64,000 nt of DNA from Diabrotica undecimpunctata. Its lineage: Eukaryota; Arthropoda; Insecta; Coleoptera; Chrysomelidae. The notes under the pieces were generated by a model. That model worked only from the letters and a program-made list of their open reading frames with translations, made no database searches and was not told the origin of the DNA. The position numbers and the translations under genes were made by a program. Shown here piece by piece: positions 3,350-62,612 of this stretch (its first letter is position 1; every line of letters begins with the position of its first letter). The DNA lies in NCBI RefSeq assembly GCF_040954645.1, contig NC_092805.1:73393186-73457185 (forward strand), given 5' to 3'.

Positions 3350-4136
3350 TTATACAGTTCTGTGATATTCATAAAAACATTGGAGACAAAAACTAGGTTT
3401 TCCAGGACATATTTTACATTCATGGACTGTTTGCTTCCGGATTTTCCTCAATCTGCATGTTTTGTATTCTTTTCTTTTCATCCTTTTAGATTATTTAGTT
3501 CCCTTTGTCTCCTTTGTCGTTTCTTCTATTTTGCTAATAGTATGAGCAATTTCGCTGTATGAGAAGAAACTGTAGGTAAATATACAATATCGCGCCCGAC
3601 TGGAAAACTCCTAATTATGTGTAACCGAAAATCGTACAAACGTAAATTATCGGACTGAGAATACTTATTGAATAAGAAATGTGCATTTACAAGGCTCATT
3701 TGCAGCACATGTACAAATATTTTTTTGTACCAACGGATGGTTTTACAATCACATGGATAATAAGCCATCATTTGGTCTTGCCTGTCTATTCCGGACATAA
3801 ACGCATTGTACCCAATTATAGACTCGGGTTTTTCTGATTCCTGTCCTCGTTTGTTTCTAAAAACACCCATTTCACTGCCAAACTCTTTACTAATGTATGC
3901 CACATTACGTTTGTCACGCCATTTTCCAACATGTACTCCATCAGAAAATGCTCTTTTGGATTGACTTTTCTATCTATTCTTAGAGTTCCAGTACAGTATG
4001 TATTTTTCTGTAGTAACTTAGACGCCAACTCAACACTATTATAAAAATTATCTAGATATACGGCATGTCCCTTACCAAGTTTCTCTTCAAGTAAATGTAA
4101 CACTATTTTTTCTGTGTGTCAGATTCCACTATATAC
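3350..4136 (-). pseudogene. piggyBac transposase, C-terminal part
   Basis: Minus-strand translation shows the DDE_Tnp_1_7 core (HAVYLDNFYNS, where D is a catalytic aspartate, then NGVTNVMWHT), the GIDRQDQM block with the later aspartate, and IRWYKKIFVH. After a frameshift near 3540 comes a C-terminal cysteine-rich finger (CKICPGKPSFCLQCF) ending at TAA 3350-3352. A frameshift also separates the frames around 3820-3900. The fragment continues the piece at 9912-10236 once the Gypsy element is removed. Broken by at least two frameshifts, so not functional. Confidence 0.88.
4133..4136. repeat. Gypsy-1 target-site duplication ATAC, left copy
   Basis: ATAC directly precedes the LTR at 4137 and is repeated directly after the other LTR at 9912-9915. 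It marks the insertion of Gypsy-1 into the piggyBac transposase. Confidence 0.8.
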
Positions 4137-4414
4137 TGTAGCGTTTTTAAATAAAACGAGCGGTTCGAATTTATATAAATATATTTATTTATAAGTTTAC
4201 AGTTCAATAGTATCTTACCAAATAAACTTACTCATAACATCGGTACATGTATATACCAAAAAGTATTATTCTCGAATCTTCTGGGGTAGTGCCACCTCTA
4301 ATTCGCCTACGTGACGTGTTGTTCTCTCTCGCACTCGATACATCGCGAGTGTTCTTGATGCCTTTTTCGAGATGCAACTGTTACATGGGCCATGCCGAAA
4401 GCATGTTCGTAACA
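4137..4414 (-). repeat. Gypsy-1 3' LTR
   Basis: 278 bp, starting TGTTACGAACATG and ending CGCTACA when read on the minus strand. It matches 9603-9911 and the solo LTR at 62335-62612. An AATAAA lies near the R region (CGTTTTATTT on the plus strand). Confidence 0.92.
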
Positions 4415-4427
4415 TTGCTCCCCTCTT
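4415..4427 (-). other. Gypsy-1 polypurine tract
   Basis: On the minus strand AAGAGGGGAGCAA directly precedes the 3' LTR, the expected plus-strand primer. Confidence 0.75.
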
Positions 4428-4511
4428 AAATATGAGCGTCCCGATCAGCAACTCTATATGTAGGCCCAGGATGGCGGAATCTACAGGACTCTCCAGCTCT
4501 GCATGAACCCC

Positions 4512-4978
4512 TCAGAAAAAAATAACAGTCCACTGTCTTTGAAGGACACGATCTCTTCGGATTAATGCAATACATATTATTAGGCCGGTTTCTCGGAAGA
4601 TCACTTCAAGCATGCTTCTGACAATCTTCCAATCCAGATTATCTAGTGCATGGTCTATCTTGGGTAAGGCCAAATTCTTGATGTCATAATTGTAACGATT
4701 TTCTTCAAATGAGTTAGAGCACGCCATATATCCTCGTAGCTTGCCCTGTCTGTATACGACTTCCTGGTCACCATATACAGCAAAGATCGAGTGCCATCTT
4801 CTAATCTCAGTACTCTTCCGACTTTAGGCTGTTGATTTTTTAACTCGTCTAAACCACCGAACTTCTTATAAAATACAGATGAGATTCCTTTAGTCATCTT
4901 AAGATCTTGGGCAACACAGTGGGCTAGAGAGACGTTATGCGGAACACTAAAAAGATCCTGCTGAACTTCTGACGTCAC
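4512..4978 (-). pseudogene. TARG1/OARD1-like macrodomain (ADP-ribosyl-glutamate hydrolase family)
   Basis: The minus-strand translation follows the fold of the small macrodomain hydrolase OARD1/TARG1 over its length: DLFSVPHNVSLAHCVAQD, FYKKFGGLDELKNQQPKVG, then YMVTRK, then (after one frameshift near 4700) LALPKIDHALDNLDW and the C-terminal helix. In human TARG1 the catalytic residues are Lys84 and Asp125. Here the aligned positions are Arg (the R of TRK, followed by a Lys) and a conserved Asp (DHALD), and the usual GCG loop reads DHA. The frame is that of the integrase upstream and is separated from it by one TGA at about 4985-4987, so it was probably a C-terminal part of Pol or read just after it. 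Family members remove ADP-ribose from glutamate or O-acyl groups; a role in countering host ADP-ribosylation is only an inference. Confidence 0.85.
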
Positions 4979-4984
4979 GCCGAA

Positions 4985-6215
4985 TCAAGCACTCTTTCTC
5001 TCTGTGTAATTTGACATAAACTCATTAAAGCTTGGTCGCCGGTCATCTTTGATCTCATGTTGAAGGGTGCGGGCTTCTTCTGTTTCATTTGATCCAGCAT
5101 AAGTTGCAAGGCGATTTATGTGAACTACTTTTGGTTTACCTTTCGGCAACTTCTTAATTCGGTATATTACGTCATTTATTCTCTTTTTAATTTCATACGG
5201 ACCCTCCCATTGTCTTTGTAGTTTAGGAGACAAGCCACGACGACGTTGTGGATTATAAAGCCAAACAAGATCACCTACTTCATAGCTTTCATTCTTGCAT
5301 CGAGAATCGTATTGATCTTTCATTCTGTCACTGGTTAACTGGATGTGTTGTCGGGCAAGTTCATGAATGTTGTTCATTCTTAACTTCATGCGGTCGACAT
5401 AATCTTCGCTTGCAACATGTTCTTCGGAAGGTCGCAGGGCAAACGAACTTCACGATTTAACATCAGGCCGGTTGGAGTCTGGCCTGTACAGTTTCATTCA
5501 CGGCCGAGCAGTAGGCCATTAGGCATAAATGAATGTGCTGGTCCCAATCTCTTTGATGTTCTGATACAACTTTGGACAGGTGTTTACCCATCGTTCGGTT
5601 CATCCTCTCGACCATTCCATCTGATTGAGGATGCAGAGGTGTCATTCTGGTCTTATTGACACCAATCAATTTACAAACGTTTTGAAAAAGGGTTGACTCG
5701 AAGTTTCGCCCTTGGTCGGAGTGGATCTCCAAAGGAACACCAAATCGGTTGAAGAATTCTTTAACAAGTACCTCTGCAACGGTAGCAGCTTCTTGATTTG
5801 GTATCGCGTAGGCCTCAGTCCATTTCGTAAAATAATCCATAGCTACCAGGATATATTTATTTCCATCATTCGTCTCTGGAAGTGGACCTGCAATGTCAAT
5901 TGCTACTCTTTCCATAGGACTACCAACATTGTACTGTTTCATGGGTGCCCTTTTTTTACCAACTGGGCCATTACTGGTTGCACACAGTTCACATTTCGGG
6001 CACCATCTTCTTACATCATCTTTATAGTTCACCCAATAGAACCGTTCTCGAACCTTTTGCAGAGTCTTCGTAATACCAAAGTGTCCACCTAATGCACCGT
6101 CATGTAACTGACGCAATACTTCTGACACTTTACTTTTAGGTACAGTCAACTGAAGCTTAGATTCTGTACCATCATCGTTCTCAAAGGTTCTATAAAGAAG
6201 ATCATCTTTTAGCAC
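4985..6215 (-). pseudogene. Gypsy-1 integrase
   Basis: The N-terminal HHCC zinc-binding region (LHDGALGGHFG, CPKCELC) is followed by the DDE core: IDIAGPLP (first D), IHSDQGRNFES (second D) and MVERMNRTM (E). A frameshift near 5465-5470 then separates the C-terminal part, which has the GPY/F module (VGDLVWLYNP, WEGPYEIKKRI, HINRLA). The Gly-Pro-Tyr motif is intact. The frame stops at TGA about 4985-4987 and the macrodomain follows in the same frame. Confidence 0.9.
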
Positions 6216-6375
6216 TAAGCAATTCCATTGGCTCCAGTAACACTTGACTTCAGGACTACATGCACTAATGTCTTGCTAAGAAGGCCTTTCACTTCGACGC
6301 ATCCAATCCAATACTCTTTTTATACATGGATCATCTGCTTGAGCGTCTTGTAGCTGTTGTGGCTGCCATTGATCA

Positions 6376-7976
6376 TTAATGACCGTAATCATATTCTTGT
6401 AATCGTTCTAACCATCTTACCATCTGGCCCTCCGGATTACGAAATTTGTAGGAGCCATTGTAGAGCAGCGTGATCACAGATGTACTGCCATACACGTATT
6501 TATGGAAATGCTCGCAAGCCTTCACTACGCCTAGCAATTCTCTCCTGGTAACGCAATAGATTCTTTCTGGTTTCGACAAGACTTTGCTAAAGTAAGCGAT
6601 GACTTTCTCCTGCCCATCTTGGATTTGGGAAAGAACAGCTCCTATTGCACTGTTGCTTGCATCGGTGTCACAACACAAATTTTCCTGCCTGTCTAGGGTA
6701 GCTTAAAATCGGTGCGCTGATCAGAGCCATTTGTAAGTGTTCAAAAGCTCTTTGACACTCTTCACTCCATGTATATTCTTTGCCTTCTTCTGTCGACTTT
6801 GTTAATGGCTTGGAGATGTTGGCAAATCCTTTGACAAAACGTCGGTAGTATGTACATAGGCCAAGAAAACTTCTAATTTCGTGTTTATCTCTTGGTACTG
6901 GCCAATCCTTAATTGCTGCAAGTTTTTCAGGATCAGCTGTTACACCATTACTTGCTACAATATGTCCCAAGTACTTCTTCTCGTCGAAACAAGTGACATT
7001 TCTTCGGACTCCACTTTAAATTCGCTGCCTGCAATCGTTGAAAGACTTCTGTCAGATTATTGGCATGTTCATCGAAGGATCTTCCAACTACAATTACATC
7101 ATCCAAATAAACCAGGCATGTTTTCCATGTTAGACCTCTTAAAACTGCCTCCATTAATCTATCTTTCAAATGTGGCCGGGGCATTACATAAACTAAAGGA
7201 CATAACTGTGAACTGTCAAAGCCCTGATCCTATCGAGAATGCGGTTTTTTCACGATCAGCTGGCTCCATGTCTACTTGCCAATATGTACCCTTTTTTCTA
7301 TCGAGTGTGGAGAACCAACGAGAACCGAAAGTGTATCCAAAGTATCGTCTATTCTGGGCAAAGGATAACTATCTTTTTTAGTTATCGCATTGAGCTGTCG
7401 GTAGTCAATACAAAAACGTGTTGAACCATCTTTCTTCTTTACTAGCACTACTGGTGATGTCCATGGACTGTTTGATGGTTCAATTACCCCTTGTTTGTTC
7501 ATATCTTTGATGATTTCTTCGGCTTTATCTCTTTTCGCAAATGGAAGTCGTCTAGGTTGTCTGATCGGCTGAGCGTCTCCGGTATTAATTTTATGCTTTA
7601 CTATGCTTGTTTTACCATTATCCTTCTTATCAATGGCAAAAACATCTTGAAATTCTATCAGCATAGACTTCACATTAGTATTCATGGAACAAATCGAAGC
7701 CACGGGAACACACTGTCCGATCAAAGTTCTTTTACTTAACTTAATAGCAGTTCCCTTTAAATTCATAACTCTTACAGGAACGACATCTCGAATTGTCACC
7801 AAAGCTTTTGCCGTTAGGAACTCGGCATTATTCACATCTTCGACCATCCTTAAACTTCCCTCTCGGCAGTAACCATCAGGTCTGGTCATCAAAATTTTCT
7901 CACTATTACCGGGTATCGTTACGTCACAAGTAGTTATTAAGCTGATAACATCTTCTTTGTCTTCATGGAACGGCAA
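6376..7976 (-). pseudogene. Gypsy-1 reverse transcriptase and RNase H
   Basis: Minus-strand pieces in several frames: the N-terminal fingers ([23 protein letters not shown], here cited by its start [10 protein letters not shown] at about 7480), FCIDYRQLN, a frameshift near 7300, the catalytic LVYLDDVIV box at about 7090-7115, the thumb (FLGLCTYYRRF) and RNase H (DTDASNSAIGAVLSQ, YCVTRRELLGVV). At least three frameshifts. The polymerase box and RNase H residues are otherwise conserved, which suggests the element was active before it decayed. Confidence 0.88.
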
Positions 7977-7991
7977 CTCTTCACCACTGAT

Positions 7992-8300
7992 CTAGAGAAC
8001 TCCATCTTTGACATTCAATACAGCCCCAACTCTCCTTAGTAAATCCATCCCCAATATGAACTCGTCGGAGATCTCTGCAATTAATACTCTATGTTTCACT
8101 GTGGTCTGGCCAATGGATACTGACATATTAGCCTCGCCATATGTATTAATTATCTCACCAGTTGCTGTTATAAGCTTTACTGTTGCAGGCGATAATTTAA
8201 GATGGCCTCGTAATACTTCTGGCCGTGCAATAGTTTTTGTTGCACCTGTATCTACCAAAAACGATCTACATTTATTATTGATACGACCCTCGATGTACAA
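7992..8300 (-). pseudogene. Gypsy-1 aspartic protease
   Basis: Retropepsin with the active-site block FLVDTGATKT and the C-terminal FILGMDLLRR. The length (about 100 residues) fits one protease domain. It lies between gag and reverse transcriptase, as in other Gypsy elements, but is cut off from the following frame by a stop near 7990. Confidence 0.88.
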
Positions 8301-8392
8301 GCTATGAATTCAACCGAAGGACGTAATGTTCACAGTTACTATGGGGGCTGTATTTCTCGAGGTCGGCAGTTGCCCCTTGGTGTCGACCCATT

Positions 8393-9409
8393 CTAGTTTT
8401 CTGACTGTTGTATAATTTTCTTGCATTTACGGCGAATGTGACCTACGTCACCACAATTCCATCTGATCTCTCGTCTCTTTGGCATCGTGTTACGAACTAC
8501 TTTTCGTACCATTTCTTCCAGACGTTCATCGTTTGGTTCGTCGCCTTCTTCGACGGTTCTTACTCGATGGCTCCGTGAAGTTTGACTAGCTGTTTCATGT
8601 TCCAAAGCAATAGCGAGCTCTTTCTGAAGCTTTCTGTAATTCACTTTCTTTTCTTCTAGACTTGTTGTAGATGGGCATCTCCGTAACGTTTGTCTAGTCG
8701 AGTGAACAAGGTCTGGTAACATTTTTCTTGACCCTTAGGAATCGATCTTAGGATATCTGTAGCATCACCTCATAAAGCAGCAGTCAAGGAAACAGCTTTT
8801 TCTTGTTCTGTCCAATGATTGGCGGTCGCAATTGCTTCAAATTGTCTAAGGTATATGGACCAAGAAGACTCTCCATCAAATGGTGGCAATTTGAATCTCA
8901 TATGTGTCGTTTCGTCTCTAGGTGATTCTTCTTTCACTACCGGATCTAAGGCTATTGTATTAACTGGTGGTAGCACTTTTGTGTTAGTTGTCATGGTCCT
9001 AATTGTTTGATCTTCTCTTCTACACGTTTTCTATCTTGTCGTTTACGTTTTTCTGTATCTTATCGAATGTTCTTGAGACTTCTTCAAATTTCTCATTGTT
9101 TTGATTACATACTTCGTCGAATCTTCTAGAAACCTTTTCGAGTGTTTCATCGAATCTTTTGGAAACGTTCTCTAATTTATCATCATTTTTTTAGAAGTTT
9201 CTTCAATAATTTGAGAGACGTTTTCAAATTTCCTTATAATTTTTTCTGGAACTCTCTTCGATCTTCATTAAAACTGCTTCTTCTGCTGATTGAAAATGGA
9301 ATGTCTCTGGGCTATCTCTATTCTTGTTAAGAACATTCTTTAGTCGTTCTTGGAGGATCTTCTTAGACCCGCTGCAGTCTTTATCGCGTTCTTCTAGTTG
9401 CTCACGCAA
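8393..9409 (-). pseudogene. Gypsy-1 gag
   Basis: The capsid-like part reads MRFKLPPFDGESSW and YLRQFEAIA (about 8800-8910), a typical Gypsy gag signature. A charged, coiled-coil-like upstream part lies at 9224-9409. The C-terminal nucleocapsid knuckle reads WNCGDVGHIRRKC: the first cysteine of the CCHC knuckle is replaced (RWNC instead of CWNC). Several frameshifts and stops break the gene. Confidence 0.75.
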
Positions 9410-9584
9410 CTATTTTACTGAAAGTTGTACTAGCAGCATCTTTGGTCAGGCACACACGTACTTTTTTTAAATGTTCTTTCTTACAAAGATCACTACCGAA
9501 CTACGCTGATGTTCCCGACGAACAATACTTTTCAAAAGTTCAACAAGTCCTTTTCAAAAGTCACTGCTGAATTTATTTCTAAAT

Positions 9585-9600
9585 CTCACACCGGACACCA
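9585..9600 (-). other. Gypsy-1 primer-binding site
   Basis: On the minus strand, two bases after the 5' LTR, the sequence TGGTGTCCGGTGTGAG begins. A TGG start fits pairing to the CCA end of a tRNA. The tRNA is not identified. Confidence 0.5.
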
Positions 9601-9602
9601 AC

Positions 9603-9702
9603 TGTAGCGTTTTTAAATAAAACGAGCGGTTCGAATTTATATAAATTTATAAGTTTACAGTTCGATATTATCTTAACAATTAAACTCACTCATAACATCG
9701 TT

Positions 9703-9761
<59 letters not shown>

Positions 9762-9911
9762 AAAAAGTATTATCCTCGAATCTTCTTCCCACCTCTAATT
9801 CGCCTACGTGACGTGTTGTTCTCTCTCGCACTCGATACATCGTGAATGTTCTTGATGCCTTTTTCGAGATGCAACCGTTACATGGTCCATGCCGAAAGCA
9901 TGTTCGTAACA
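9603..9911 (-). repeat. Gypsy-1 5' LTR with internal (TA)n
   Basis: 309 bp, same ends as 4137-4414. It is longer because a TA array (about 9702-9759) has expanded where the other LTR has only a few TA units, and it lacks a short segment near 9786. The divergence between the LTRs shows that the insertion is old. Confidence 0.92.
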
Positions 9912-10236
9912 ATACATTTGAAGATCCCTCGTAAATAAAAATTTCAAAATTAGGCCATTTGGTTCTGTAAGCATGTATAATTTAATGCCATACTTATGGC
10001 GCTCGTTTTAAATATAGTGCTTAAATTGTAGACGGCCCCTCCACAGCACCATAGCTTCATTCAACGGTAGCTCTCTTCCTGGGTAATAAATCTCATTCAT
10101 TTTTTTATTGAAAAAATCTACTACAGATCTTATCTTTCCAAGACGATCAGTTGCAGGTGTTTCTGGAGTCGTAAAATGCAAACACCTTAATATTAGAAGG
10201 AATCTATTTCGTGCCATATGTTTTCTTAAAACTGGT
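9912..10236 (-). pseudogene. piggyBac transposase, middle part
   Basis: Minus-strand translation gives KHMARNRFLLILRCLHF, then RLGKIRSVVDFFNKK and YYPGRELPLNEAMVLWRGR, the classic piggyBac core, ending in KYGIKLYMLTE just before the Gypsy insertion. It joins 10567-11134 upstream once the LINE insertion is removed, and 3350-4136 downstream once Gypsy-1 is removed. Confidence 0.88.
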
Positions 10237-10557
10237 CTTCTCTTCTCATTGCGCCGTCTCCTTTCGAAGGTTGGCGATCCAAATGGCAATTGTAGTTTTG
10301 GAAACTGCTGCGCGAAAGATCTCTGTGGATGAGCGGTCGAACCATCTCCTCAGGTCTTTCAGCCACGAGTTCTGGCGTCTTCCTACTGATCTTTTGCCCT
10401 GTACTTTTCCTTCCAGTATAACTTGAAGTAATTCATATCTTTCGCCACTCAACACATGATCCAAGTATTGCATTTTCCTCTATTTGATTATTCTTAGTAA
10501 TTATTTTTGTTTACACATGCGACGAAGTACCTCAACATTAGTAACTCTTTGTACTAA
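10237..10557 (-). mobile_element. 5'-truncated LINE fragment inserted in piggyBac
   Basis: The minus strand encodes a non-LTR retrotransposon C-terminus (LRRMCKQK, YLDHVLSGERYELLQ, GKVQGKRSVGRRQNSWLKDL, IFRAAVSKTTIAIWIANLR). It is flanked by the exact 9-bp duplication AAAACTGGT (10228-10236 and 10558-10566). It belongs to the same family as the 101-bp insert at 50328-50428 and resembles LINE-C at 28875-32797. Confidence 0.85.
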
Positions 10558-14092: not shown

Positions 14093-15850
14093 TTATTCAT
14101 GGTATTTGTACACACCCTGGATATTGTAAACTCCTCGTATCTTTTCTGATTCTACATGTCTAAGAACATAGCTGTGTATTCCATTTTCATTTTGTATGAT
14201 GTATGGACCCTCGAAAATAGGCATTAGCTTTGCACACACGTCTCCCGTGAGATTTGATACTCGTAACGCCCTTACAAGCACCTTTTCTCCCTTCTGGAAA
14301 GTCACTGGTCTTCGTTTTCTATTCTGAATTTGCCTTTGGAGATATTTTTCATTACTGCGCTGCAGCCTCCTTCGAACAGTTTCCAATACTATTTGATACT
14401 CTCTCTGCCCCGGTTCTTCCCATGGCTGTACTGGCATAATTCCCTTCATGACATATTCCGGCGTTTCTTTTGTCACCGTACTTGGAGTGGTGTTCAAGTA
14501 GTTTTCGATTTCTGCCACTTTCCTATCCCATCGTCGATGTTGTCCAATGGCAGCAATGCGGAGGAATTTTGTCGTCTCTTGTATAAAACGTTCTGACGGA
14601 TTACTTTTAGGATGTCGGATACTGACAAAATTTGTCCTTATTCCCCTGTCTTGCAACTGTCTCTTGAATCGGTCACTCCGGAAATATGTAGCATTGTCTA
14701 AAAGAATTTTCCTTGGTGTTCCTACGGTGGCTATAAAATTGTCTATCTTTCTCATAATTTCTTCCCCCTTTGTCGTACGGCATGTGTATAGCTTTACATA
14801 TTTCGAAAAAATATCTACCATCACCAAAATATGTTTGTTCCTCTGCGTGGTCATTATTAGATCACTTAACATATCTATTGCTACAATGTCTAATTTTTGG
14901 TGGGATACAATATTTTTAGCCACATTTTCATTCCGGAAATTTCTGCTTTTATATTTTTGACATGTTTCACATCTTTGGGTAACTTCTTTTGCAATCCGGT
15001 AATCTTTTCGGCATATATAGTTTTCGCGAAAAACCAGCCAAACCTTCCTGCTGCCGATATGTCCATTATCCTCGTGTATTTTCTGTATGATCCTTTCTGC
15101 CAATGTCTGTGTTATCACGTATAGTTCCTTTCCCTTTTCTTCTCCACATATCAATTTTCTTTCTTTTTCCTCAATTTGTTTACACATATTTATTTTGTAT
15201 TCTGCCTCCTCCATTTCGCATACTTCTTCAAATACCACTGTTTCAATTGTACCTTTTTCGTCTTCTTTTGTTAATCTTTCTTCTTTTTCTTCTTCTGGGC
15301 TCATCTCTTCTTTTGAGGAAACCCACTTTTCACTTTCTTTTGAAAATCTCCTCTTTCTTCTCTGTCCTTGCTTCATTGCCAAATTCATTTCCACCGTTTG
15401 TTCTTTGTCTAAATCATTTTTTCGTTTCTCATTTTCCTTTTCCATTTCCTTACTGTCCTGTTCTTCTTCTTTTTCCTCTGTGATTTTCATCGTGTTATTT
15501 TTGAAATCTATCACCACATGTTTTTCTGCCAATTCATCCACTCCTACGATCATATCATGCGACATGTTTGGCATCACAACACATTGTAATGCATAAAATT
15601 TCTTATCCAATCGTACTTTTATTCGTATTCCTTCATTTATCGTTGCCAAAGTCCGTTTATTTGCGCCCACTAAATTTACCTTGGGAATTTTGTAAATCAA
15701 ATTCGTTAAATTAACTTCCTCTATTAGTTTTCTGTTGATCAGTGTAATTTCCGATACAGTATCAATCATAATTTTAATCGGTGTCTCGTTGATAAAACCA
15801 TCTACCAATTTCAGATTTGCTCCACTTATTTTGTCCTTATTTTCTGCCAA
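14093..15850 (-). CDS. Gypsy-2 protease-integrase fusion frame (585 residues)
   Basis: One uninterrupted frame. Residues about 10-125 are a retropepsin domain: IKIMIDTVSEITLI sits where D-T/S-G is expected, so the glycine of the catalytic triad is Val, and MIVGVDELAE is the C-terminal block. Residues about 125-255 are a Glu/Lys/Asp-rich linker. Residues about 260-585 are an integrase: HEDNGHIG...CETCQKY (HHCC), VAIDML (first D), ILLDNATYF (second D), NPSERFIQE (E), and a C-terminal GPY-type module (FEGPYIIQNENG). Reverse transcriptase and RNase H, which normally lie between, are missing without loss of frame. It overlaps the gag frame by 25 nt in another register, as expected for frameshifted gag-pol expression. 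The integrase keeps all DDE residues. Confidence 0.88.
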   Translation of the reverse strand: MAENKDKISGANLKLVDGFINETPIKIMIDTVSEITLINRKLIEEVNLTNLIYKIPKVNLVGANKRTLATINEGIRIKVRLDKKFYALQCVVMPNMSHDMIVGVDELAEKHVVIDFKNNTMKITEEKEEEQDSKEMEKENEKRKNDLDKEQTVEMNLAMKQGQRRKRRFSKESEKWVSSKEEMSPEEEKEERLTKEDEKGTIETVVFEEVCEMEEAEYKINMCKQIEEKERKLICGEEKGKELYVITQTLAERIIQKIHEDNGHIGSRKVWLVFRENYICRKDYRIAKEVTQRCETCQKYKSRNFRNENVAKNIVSHQKLDIVAIDMLSDLIMTTQRNKHILVMVDIFSKYVKLYTCRTTKGEEIMRKIDNFIATVGTPRKILLDNATYFRSDRFKRQLQDRGIRTNFVSIRHPKSNPSERFIQETTKFLRIAAIGQHRRWDRKVAEIENYLNTTPSTVTKETPEYVMKGIMPVQPWEEPGQREYQIVLETVRRRLQRSNEKYLQRQIQNRKRRPVTFQKGEKVLVRALRVSNLTGDVCAKLMPIFEGPYIIQNENGIHSYVLRHVESEKIRGVYNIQGVYKYHE

Positions 15851-17236
15851 TTTAATAAATTCCTTCGGGTGACAAAAAATTCCTGTTTGTTTCTTGTGTT
15901 GTTGACCGCTCTTCTATTTTCTCTTGTTCTCTCGGACCCGTATCGGTTTCCGCGATTTTCCGGTTCATTCGTTCTATTATTATTTCGGTTTTCCTGATAT
16001 GTGCGAGTGTTGTTTCTATTCTGGTTCTCTCGATATCTGTTTTCGTTCCATTGCCGATTTCTTTGTTCATAGTTTACTCTTCCGTTGTCTCTACTTTCGT
16101 TTTCCCTCCTCGAGACAAATTCTCTTCTTGTGTACTCTCTCCTAAAGTTTTGTCCTCTATCTCTATAGTCTTGATTTTCTCGTTGTCTATAATTTTCTTG
16201 CGTTCTCCTCATTTTTCTTTCTCTTAATTTTGCTTCTCGTATTTGTAAGAATTGACATAAACTGTCAATATCTTTGTAGTTTTGTAGAGTTATGTGATCT
16301 TCTAAGGTATCTTCAAAATGTCTGGCTATTAGTTCCACTAGCTGTTCGGACGAATAGTTGTAATGTAAGTGTCTTGCATTGTTGTATAGTTGTAGGGCAT
16401 ATGTTTTTTCTGATATACCTATACTATCCTGGTATCTCCCATTTTGTAATTCCTTGTTTATCTCTATCTGTTGTATTTTCCCCCAGAAATTTTTGTTCAA
16501 ATGTTTGCCAATTTTGCAATTCTTCTTCTTTGCTATCAAACCATAAACTTGCCTTATCTTTAAGATGGTTCCTTATCGTTTCCTTTGCTGTTTCGAAATT
16601 ACCGATATGTCGTACTTTCTTTTTTAAATTGTTGATGAAAATTACTGGGTGTAATTTTTTTACGTCCCCGCCAAACTGTATTTTTATGTCACCCGGACTT
16701 TGGATGAGTACTTCTCTCCTGTCTCCCATCTCTCGTTGTTTTCTGATATCCTCAATTTGTTTTTCTATTTCTTTCTTGTCTTCTTGTAGCGCCATTTCAA
16801 ATTTTTCTTCCAACTGTTCTATTTCCTTTTTCTGGAAATTTCGTATCTCCTTCATTGTATCTTGGATATCTTTAATCTCTGTCTCTTGTTTTGCATTCTT
16901 TAGGGTTATTTCTTCTATCTGTTGTATCAGTTCTTTCTTTATCCCCTCAACACATCCTTTAATTTCCTGTTCATAGTTTTCCAGACGCTGCTCTATATTC
17001 CTGTTATTTAGTTCTATTGTTTGTTTTGTTTCATCCATTTTTAGTGATGATTCTTGTATTTGTTGTGTCTGTATTTGCATCATTGCTAATAATTTTTCCA
17101 GCATCCCTGTTTCTTTTCTTTCCTCTATTATTGTAGCATTTCCTTCATTATCCGATCCTTCTTCAACAATTGTTTCTTCTAATCTGTTATCCTCCTTTCT
17201 TTCTTGCATTTTGCTTTGACTCCTTGTGGTCGACAT
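15826..17236 (-). pseudogene. Gypsy-2 gag with coiled coil and Arg/Asn-rich tail
   Basis: Starts at the ATG 17234-17236 (MSTTRSQSK). The first about 190 residues are Glu/Lys/Gln-rich heptad-like sequence, a probable long coiled coil. The capsid-like part reads KKLHPVIFINNLKKK and ASLWFDSKEEELQNW. One frameshift near 16480-16500 moves reading into the second frame (FWGKIQQIEIN, ARHLHYNY). The C-terminus (about 120 residues) is Arg/Asn/Glu-rich with repeated REN, NRN and RNR words and no CCHC zinc knuckle. The basic tail probably takes the RNA-binding role. Confidence 0.82.
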
Positions 17237-46161: not shown

Positions 46162-46749
46162 GTAAAATATACTGAAGATGGTCTTGAAGCTATAGTTTTT
46201 ACAGCTCAAGGTGACATGAGACAGGCCTTAAACAATTTGCAATCCACTCACAATGGTTTTGGTGAAGTAAATTCTCAGTCAGTGTTTAAAGTATGTGATG
46301 AGCCTCACCCTATGTTGATAAAAGACATGTTGAAAAATTGTTCAAAAGGTGACATCAGAAAGGCCTATAAAGTAACAGAGCATTTATGGAATTTGGGTTA
46401 TGCAGCAGAGGATATAATAAAGAATATCTTCAAGGTCTGCAAAAATATGGATATGGAAGAGGGGTTAAAATTAGAATTTATAAAGGTGAGAAATTATTAT
46501 TTCTTTTCTGTACTTTATTAAAATTTAACTGATGCTTTATTAAAACTAATTTTATAAATAAAATTACAGTAAATTATTATCAAGCACTGTACAGACTCTA
46601 AATACATAAGTAACTTTTATAATAAATATATTTTGTAGGAAATTGGCCTGACTCATCAAAGAATAGTGGATGGTCTATGTTCACTAATGCAAATGTCTGG
46701 ATTATTGGCAAGGTTATGTAAAGCCGCTAAAGGGGACACCAGGATGTAG
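46162..46749 (+). CDS. RFC2: Replication factor C subunit 2, two terminal exons
   Basis: Exon 46162-46485 (108 codons) follows acceptor AG 46160-46161 and ends before donor GTGAG at 46486. Intron 46486-46638 is 153 bp. The last exon 46639-46749 ends in TAG. The joined translation reads [78 protein letters not shown] then [26 protein letters not shown]. This is the end of the AAA+ lid and the C-terminal collar of the 40-kDa clamp-loader subunit RFC2 (RfC4 in Drosophila), with the RFC2-specific [13 protein letters not shown] loads PCNA on primed DNA in the nucleus. No frameshift or stop is present. The preceding exons (AAA+ ATPase with Walker A and B) are not seen in this window, so the intron before 46162 is very long or the exons were missed. 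Confidence 0.93.
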
Positions 46750-62334: not shown

Positions 62335-62612
62335 TGGTACGAACATGCATTCGGTGTGGCCCGTGTAACGGTTGCATCTCGAAAGCGACTAAAAGTTTCC
62401 GGCGATGTATCGAGCGCAAGAGAGATCAACCCGTCAAATAGGCGAATTAGAGGTGGGCTACTCCAGAATGTTCTAGTACATAGTGACTTTTATATATAAG
62501 CGAATACCTTCTAGGAGTGGAGTTTAGTTGATAAGATGTTACCGAACTGTAAACTTATAAATAAATATATTTATATAAATTCGAACCGCTCGTTTTATTT
62601 AATCTCGCTACA
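62335..62612 (+). repeat. solo LTR of the Gypsy-1 family
   Basis: 278 bp, starting TGGTACGAACATGC and ending CGCTACA. It is homologous over its length to 4137-4414 and 9603-9911 but in plus orientation. The 4-bp duplication GTAT flanks it (62331-62334 and 62613-62616). It arose by LTR-LTR recombination of an independent insertion. It has a TATATATAAG box at about 62490. Confidence 0.9.

Follow-up and report, generated by a model that had tools for sequence, protein, structure and literature searches.

The window analysed here, a 64,000-nucleotide stretch of contig NC_092805.1 of Diabrotica undecimpunctata, carries on its minus strand, from position 9911 to position 4137, a long terminal repeat (LTR) retrotransposon of Gypsy type (Ty3-like) that is no longer intact. 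Between the integrase and the polypurine tract (PPT) of this element lie a macrodomain, whose sequence, profile match, place in the tree and predicted fold assign it to the OARD1/TARG1 type, and a CCCH zinc finger (Table 1). We consider it probable that Pol of this element had been extended past the integrase by a captured eukaryotic OARD1/TARG1 macrodomain, followed by the CCCH finger, whose frame ends at the PPT. The original prediction, made from the letters of the DNA, had proposed the macrodomain as a hydrolase of ADP-ribosylation carried in frame behind the integrase; the zinc finger was absent from it.

The macrodomain is distributed over two minus-strand open reading frames (ORFs). ORF 4655-4984 carries the SLAHC and KKFGG-DEL-NQQ-K-G motifs, and ORF 4512-4823, which is in another frame, carries LALPKI and ALDNLDW, so that every motif quoted in the original prediction is present in the translation. 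In a PDB search, the first piece matched human OARD1 with E=1.5e-18 over chain positions 11-99, and the second matched the adjoining chain positions 105-143 with E=0.011. We also built a profile on 34 relatives, of which 21 came from viral contigs and 13 from bacterial genomes, with no named animal sequence; they had been gathered by tblastn and pattern scans and were left from 38 domains after removal of three identical sequences and a short one. The two ORFs scored 63.3 bits (profile positions 2-94 of 138) and 29.3 bits (positions 89-135), and the two colinear pieces together span positions 2-135. Of the 1424 window ORFs of at least 25 residues, these two alone matched this profile at E up to 1, and the best score among 59,645 ORFs of 40 Markov surrogates was 10.1 bits. 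These results indicate a nearly full-length TARG1-type domain that is broken by a frame change. The near-complete extent claimed for the domain therefore holds for the profile, but not for one readable protein; of the interval 4512-6215 quoted in the original prediction, only about 4569-4972 is macrodomain and the remainder is integrase.

Family databases were less responsive to the two pieces. Pfam, NCBIfam and PADLOC gave no macro match for either of them, and PHROGs gave weak matches (best 0.065); in a small first alignment of six members, the five others did reach Pfam Macro with E no higher than 1 (best 2.6e-5). A chance similarity or a misreading would agree with the silence of these three databases, but the OARD1 match and the distance between the two profile scores and the best surrogate score stand against it, and on the surrogate scores we regard it as practically excluded.

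The predicted structure of the first piece (109 residues) had a predicted local distance difference test score (pLDDT) of 87.6, with TARG1 as the closest fold; the last ∼11 modelled residues lie past the frame change and had a pLDDT of about 63. The structural match to the macrodomains of alphavirus nsP3 and coronavirus Nsp3 was far weaker than that to TARG1. Among viral proteins, the best structural matches (E from 3.3e-9 to about 5e-6) were predicted macrodomains of arthropod-associated viruses: Armadillidium vulgare iridescent virus, Kadipiro virus (VP8), Frankliniella occidentalis flavi-like virus 1, thrips virga-like viruses and an entomopoxvirus. These are domains of like shape, compared by structure alone and with no claim of kinship or of TARG1 type, and none of them belongs to an LTR retroelement. 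In a tree of 36 sequences, the window domain grouped with eukaryotic OARD1 and not with the bacterial and viral-contig relatives (support 99). A tree of 69 sequences, which included the human protein and were obtained from 101 by keeping those below 85% identity (65 of 80 new domains were kept, and 80 of 115 relatives were used), gave the OARD1 grouping a support of 100. One of the contigs in the viral collection also contributed a TARG1-like gene (L044:512-1033, plus strand) to this second tree, where it groups with human OARD1; judged from its ORFs, the neighbourhood of this gene has a eukaryotic look.

The position of the domain links it to Pol. As originally proposed, its place is within the LTR-to-LTR unit, after the integrase and before the PPT, and its first piece shares the frame of the integrase C-terminus: ORF 4985-5449 and ORF 4655-4984 are separated by a single TGA (4985-4987). 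From this TGA to the macrodomain there is no in-frame ATG, and just five residues precede the first conserved residue. With no ATG to start it separately, the domain was, on the simplest view, originally fused to Pol, in line with the earlier suggestion that it was probably part of Pol or read directly after it. The CCCH finger is in the third frame. Its reading frame extends over 4429-4605 (ORF 4426-4605), and its stop codon, TAA at 4426-4428, overlaps the PPT, as expected at the true end of a coding region. The C-x7,8-C-x5-C-x3-H motif occurred only here among the window ORFs and in 1 of 40 surrogate windows. CCCH fingers of this kind are often present in RNA-binding proteins. The frame matched CPSF4 with E=2.8e-12 summed over several fingers (best single finger 0.059); it shares C-x7-C-x5-C-x3-H with the CPSF4/CPSF30 fingers, but is a single finger rather than a tandem array.

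Pol, macrodomain and CCCH finger are consecutive on a common strand and take up all the sequence as far as the PPT. Read most simply, they once encoded a single Pol-macrodomain-CCCH protein, later broken by one stop and two frame changes, just as the other frames of the element are broken, and a spliced product is a possible alternative; the arrangement may be shared by relatives of the element. In other Gypsy members, to our knowledge, env or nothing is found between integrase and PPT, and in this respect the window element differs from them. The window domain also differs from the cellular protein in having an integrase before it and a CCCH finger after it, while PMC7139919 describes human TARG1 as having no notable other domains. 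A fragment of a host OARD1 gene or retropseudogene could instead have been inserted into an element already in place. The lesions in the domain and the fact that OARD1 is a cellular gene would suit such a nested insertion, but it is very unlikely, because A or T runs of at least 8 and bracketing repeats of at least 8 are absent and the GC content of the domain (0.426) is like that of the integrase (0.420). Furthermore, two domains, both on the Pol strand, take up the interval from the integrase to the PPT.

The active site of the domain departs from that of human TARG1/OARD1 (C6orf130), a terminal ADP-ribose protein glycohydrolase. At the column that we take to be the catalytic K84 of TARG1, the window domain has an arginine, whereas all 100 aligned relatives, the human protein included, have a lysine (counted in the set before the 85% identity filter; the smaller 36-sequence set gives 35 of 35). 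The GxG loop that precedes the conserved aspartate is DxA, with both glycines lost, and in the MGxGI loop MG is replaced by MT, with loss of the first glycine. The aspartate itself, presumably the catalytic D125 of TARG1, is retained; in the C-terminal third, the Leu, Trp and Phe positions are kept as well. Of the lysine, the aspartate and the GxG loop, then, the aspartate alone is kept. The arginine and the DxA loop point to a TARG1-derived domain, not to a demonstrated TARG1 hydrolase: the domain may bind ADP-ribose, while the sequence of the window copy does not support ADP-ribose hydrolysis. The hydrolase claim of the original prediction is weakened accordingly.

The extent of change can be compared with the age of the insertion. 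At 24 columns conserved in at least 90% of the relatives, the window domain keeps 14 residues and human OARD1 keeps 23; one of the ten columns lost in the window also deviates in the human protein. With 0.028 substitutions per site since insertion, ∼1.5 losses would be expected (Poisson P of at least 10 losses, 4e-6), a rough estimate in which the divergence of the LTRs serves as a neutral clock and sites are treated as independent. The excess of losses suggests that most of the change predates the insertion, in the lineage of the element or in an unusual host OARD1, although any one substitution, K to R included, could be recent.

These figures bear on two other accounts of the domain. In the first, a single copy acquired part of an OARD1 mRNA of the host, perhaps through template switching while it was reverse transcribed; the family lacked the domain and the capture had no function. 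The window holds a single internal copy, that copy is broken, and the domain groups with OARD1, a normal cellular gene, all of which would fit. The ten lost columns, however, exceed what decay after insertion predicts, the macrodomain is in frame with Pol, and the coding region reaches the PPT and holds a second domain, so that we judge a one-off capture unlikely. In the second account, the domain is a passenger at the level of the family, had lost its ADP-ribose chemistry before insertion, and extends the integrase C-terminus structurally with no role that involves ADP-ribose. The changes at the catalytic lysine and in both glycine loops are as this account would have them. Against it, the fold of the first piece is still confidently predicted, the Leu, Trp and Phe positions are retained along with the aspartate, and macrodomains are also known to serve as binding modules (PMC7139919). 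A pure passenger is thus rather doubtful, if somewhat easier to accept than a one-off capture.

Several observations weigh against an extended Pol as the ancestral state. Only one copy in the window has an internal region, the other trace of the family being a solo LTR, and with the stop and the two frame changes a single reading frame cannot be proved directly. The tree contains only one named animal sequence, the window branch is long (1.30, versus 0.14 for human), and human OARD1 is up to 50% identical to some viral-contig sequences versus 42% to the window domain. Part of the divergence could lie in the host lineage. Queries made from the macrodomain, from the integrase and from part of an LTR brought up no relative of the element in the viral contigs, a collection that does not consist of animal genomes. 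The integrase, RNase H and CCCH pieces gave no tblastn match at 0.01 in 123 macrodomain loci, and blastn of 4990-6275 against phages gave no match.

What the domain might do for the element can be framed as follows. The module would be carried with the integrase or with the particle; at chromatin or in antiviral complexes it would bind ADP-ribose marks or proteins modified with ADP-ribose, and the CCCH finger would hold the RNA of the element. This is the mechanism that seems most likely to us, and we put it forward tentatively. Since the lysine at the catalytic position and the glycine loop are altered, removal of ADP-ribose is no more likely than its reading or shielding, and a role of macrodomains as binding modules is also described in PMC7139919. 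By reading, shielding or removing such marks, an integrase or Pol module could aid integration or escape from silencing. The element would plausibly benefit, since KAP1 is reportedly mono-ADP-ribosylated by SIRT6, a modification that promotes heterochromatin on L1 retrotransposons and helps to silence them (reviewed in PMC4695847).

A wider proposal, which we find less probable than this mechanism, is that a Gypsy lineage possesses an integrase-linked accessory module made of a TARG1-derived macrodomain and a CCCH finger, which binds or removes ADP-ribose on chromatin or antiviral proteins and so lets the element evade, at integration, silencing or damage signalling that depends on ADP-ribosylation. 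Some viral macrodomains counter host ADP-ribosylation, and if this proposal were true, the module would be their retrotransposon counterpart. For alphaviruses, macrodomain action against host ADP-ribosylation is described in PMC7139919. An LTR retrotransposon with an integrase-adjacent macrodomain would suggest that ADP-ribosylation is a barrier for endogenous elements too, which is directly testable, and would represent an unusual capture of a domain of the ADP-ribose pathway into Pol; if confined to the window copy, it would be a curiosity of gene capture. Among the titles listed by a search of one open library, none dealt with a macrodomain within a retrotransposon, which is not proof of absence.

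The element itself has the marks of a Gypsy retrotransposon: two LTRs with TG...CA ends, each starting with TGTT and ending with TACA, a GTAT on either flank of the LTR-to-LTR unit that represents a 4-bp target duplication, a PPT, and the order protease, reverse transcriptase (RT), RNase H and integrase, the last with H2C2, rve and C-terminal domains. The two LTRs differ at 14 of 263 aligned sites (Kimura two-parameter distance, K2P, 0.055), and the gap in their length is mostly a TA run. Within the presumed Gag region, a CCHC-like knuckle (8396-8734) matched PF00098 with E=0.0018 and 18.7 bits, which is under the curated cutoff of 20.8, and ORF 8773-9030 had no match in the Pfam search. The same search identified RVT_1 (E=2.7e-10, 6951-7229) and RT_RNaseH (E=1.8e-23, 6379-6702), and gave no match at 0.01 for ORF 7275-7991.

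Table 1. Features of the retrotransposon and of its solo LTR relative in the window
Feature	Position	Strand	Remarks
5′ LTR	9603-9911	-	309 bp, TGTT...TACA; GTAT at 9912-9915
Presumed primer binding site	9583-9600	-	2 nt inside the 5′ LTR end; by position only
Presumed Gag region with CCHC-like knuckle, broken frames	8393-9030	-	
Aspartic protease	7995-8309	-	PF13975, E=5.8e-12
RT and RNase H region, broken frames	6379-7991	-	
Integrase, H2C2 zinc domain and rve core	5466-6275	-	PF17921, E=1.8e-20; PF00665, E=3.3e-15
Integrase C-terminal domain and linker	4988-5449	-	PF22938, E=1e-12; followed by TGA
TARG1/OARD1-like macrodomain, N-terminal two thirds	4691-4972	-	frame shared with the integrase C-terminus
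TARG1/OARD1-like macrodomain, C-terminal third	4569-4709	-	different frame; LALPKI...ALDNLDW
CCCH zinc finger, C-x7-C-x5-C-x3-H	4471-4527	-	third frame; PF00642, E=5e-7
PPT (AAGAGGGGAGCAA)	4415-4427	-	adjoins the 3′ LTR; overlaps the stop of the CCCH frame
3′ LTR	4137-4414	-	278 bp; GTAT at 4133-4136
Solo LTR, diverged relative	62335-62612	+	GTAT on both sides; without internal region

The solo LTR is at a K2P of about 0.26 from either LTR of the element, and the GTAT found at both insertions hints at a GTAT target preference (two cases only). Fragments of a DDE_Tnp_1_7 transposase, presumably of piggyBac type, flank the element on the minus strand at 3526-4118 and 10008-10349; together with the GTAT on both sides, they suggest that the element was inserted into an older DNA transposon. 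Elsewhere in the window, an open frame of 606 residues (14093-15913, minus strand) has an aspartic protease followed by integrase domains, with no RT domain listed between them. An ORF at 46162-46521 (plus strand) matches the C-terminal domain of replication factor C (PF08542, E=8e-18) and is probably an exon of a host gene amid transposon remnants.
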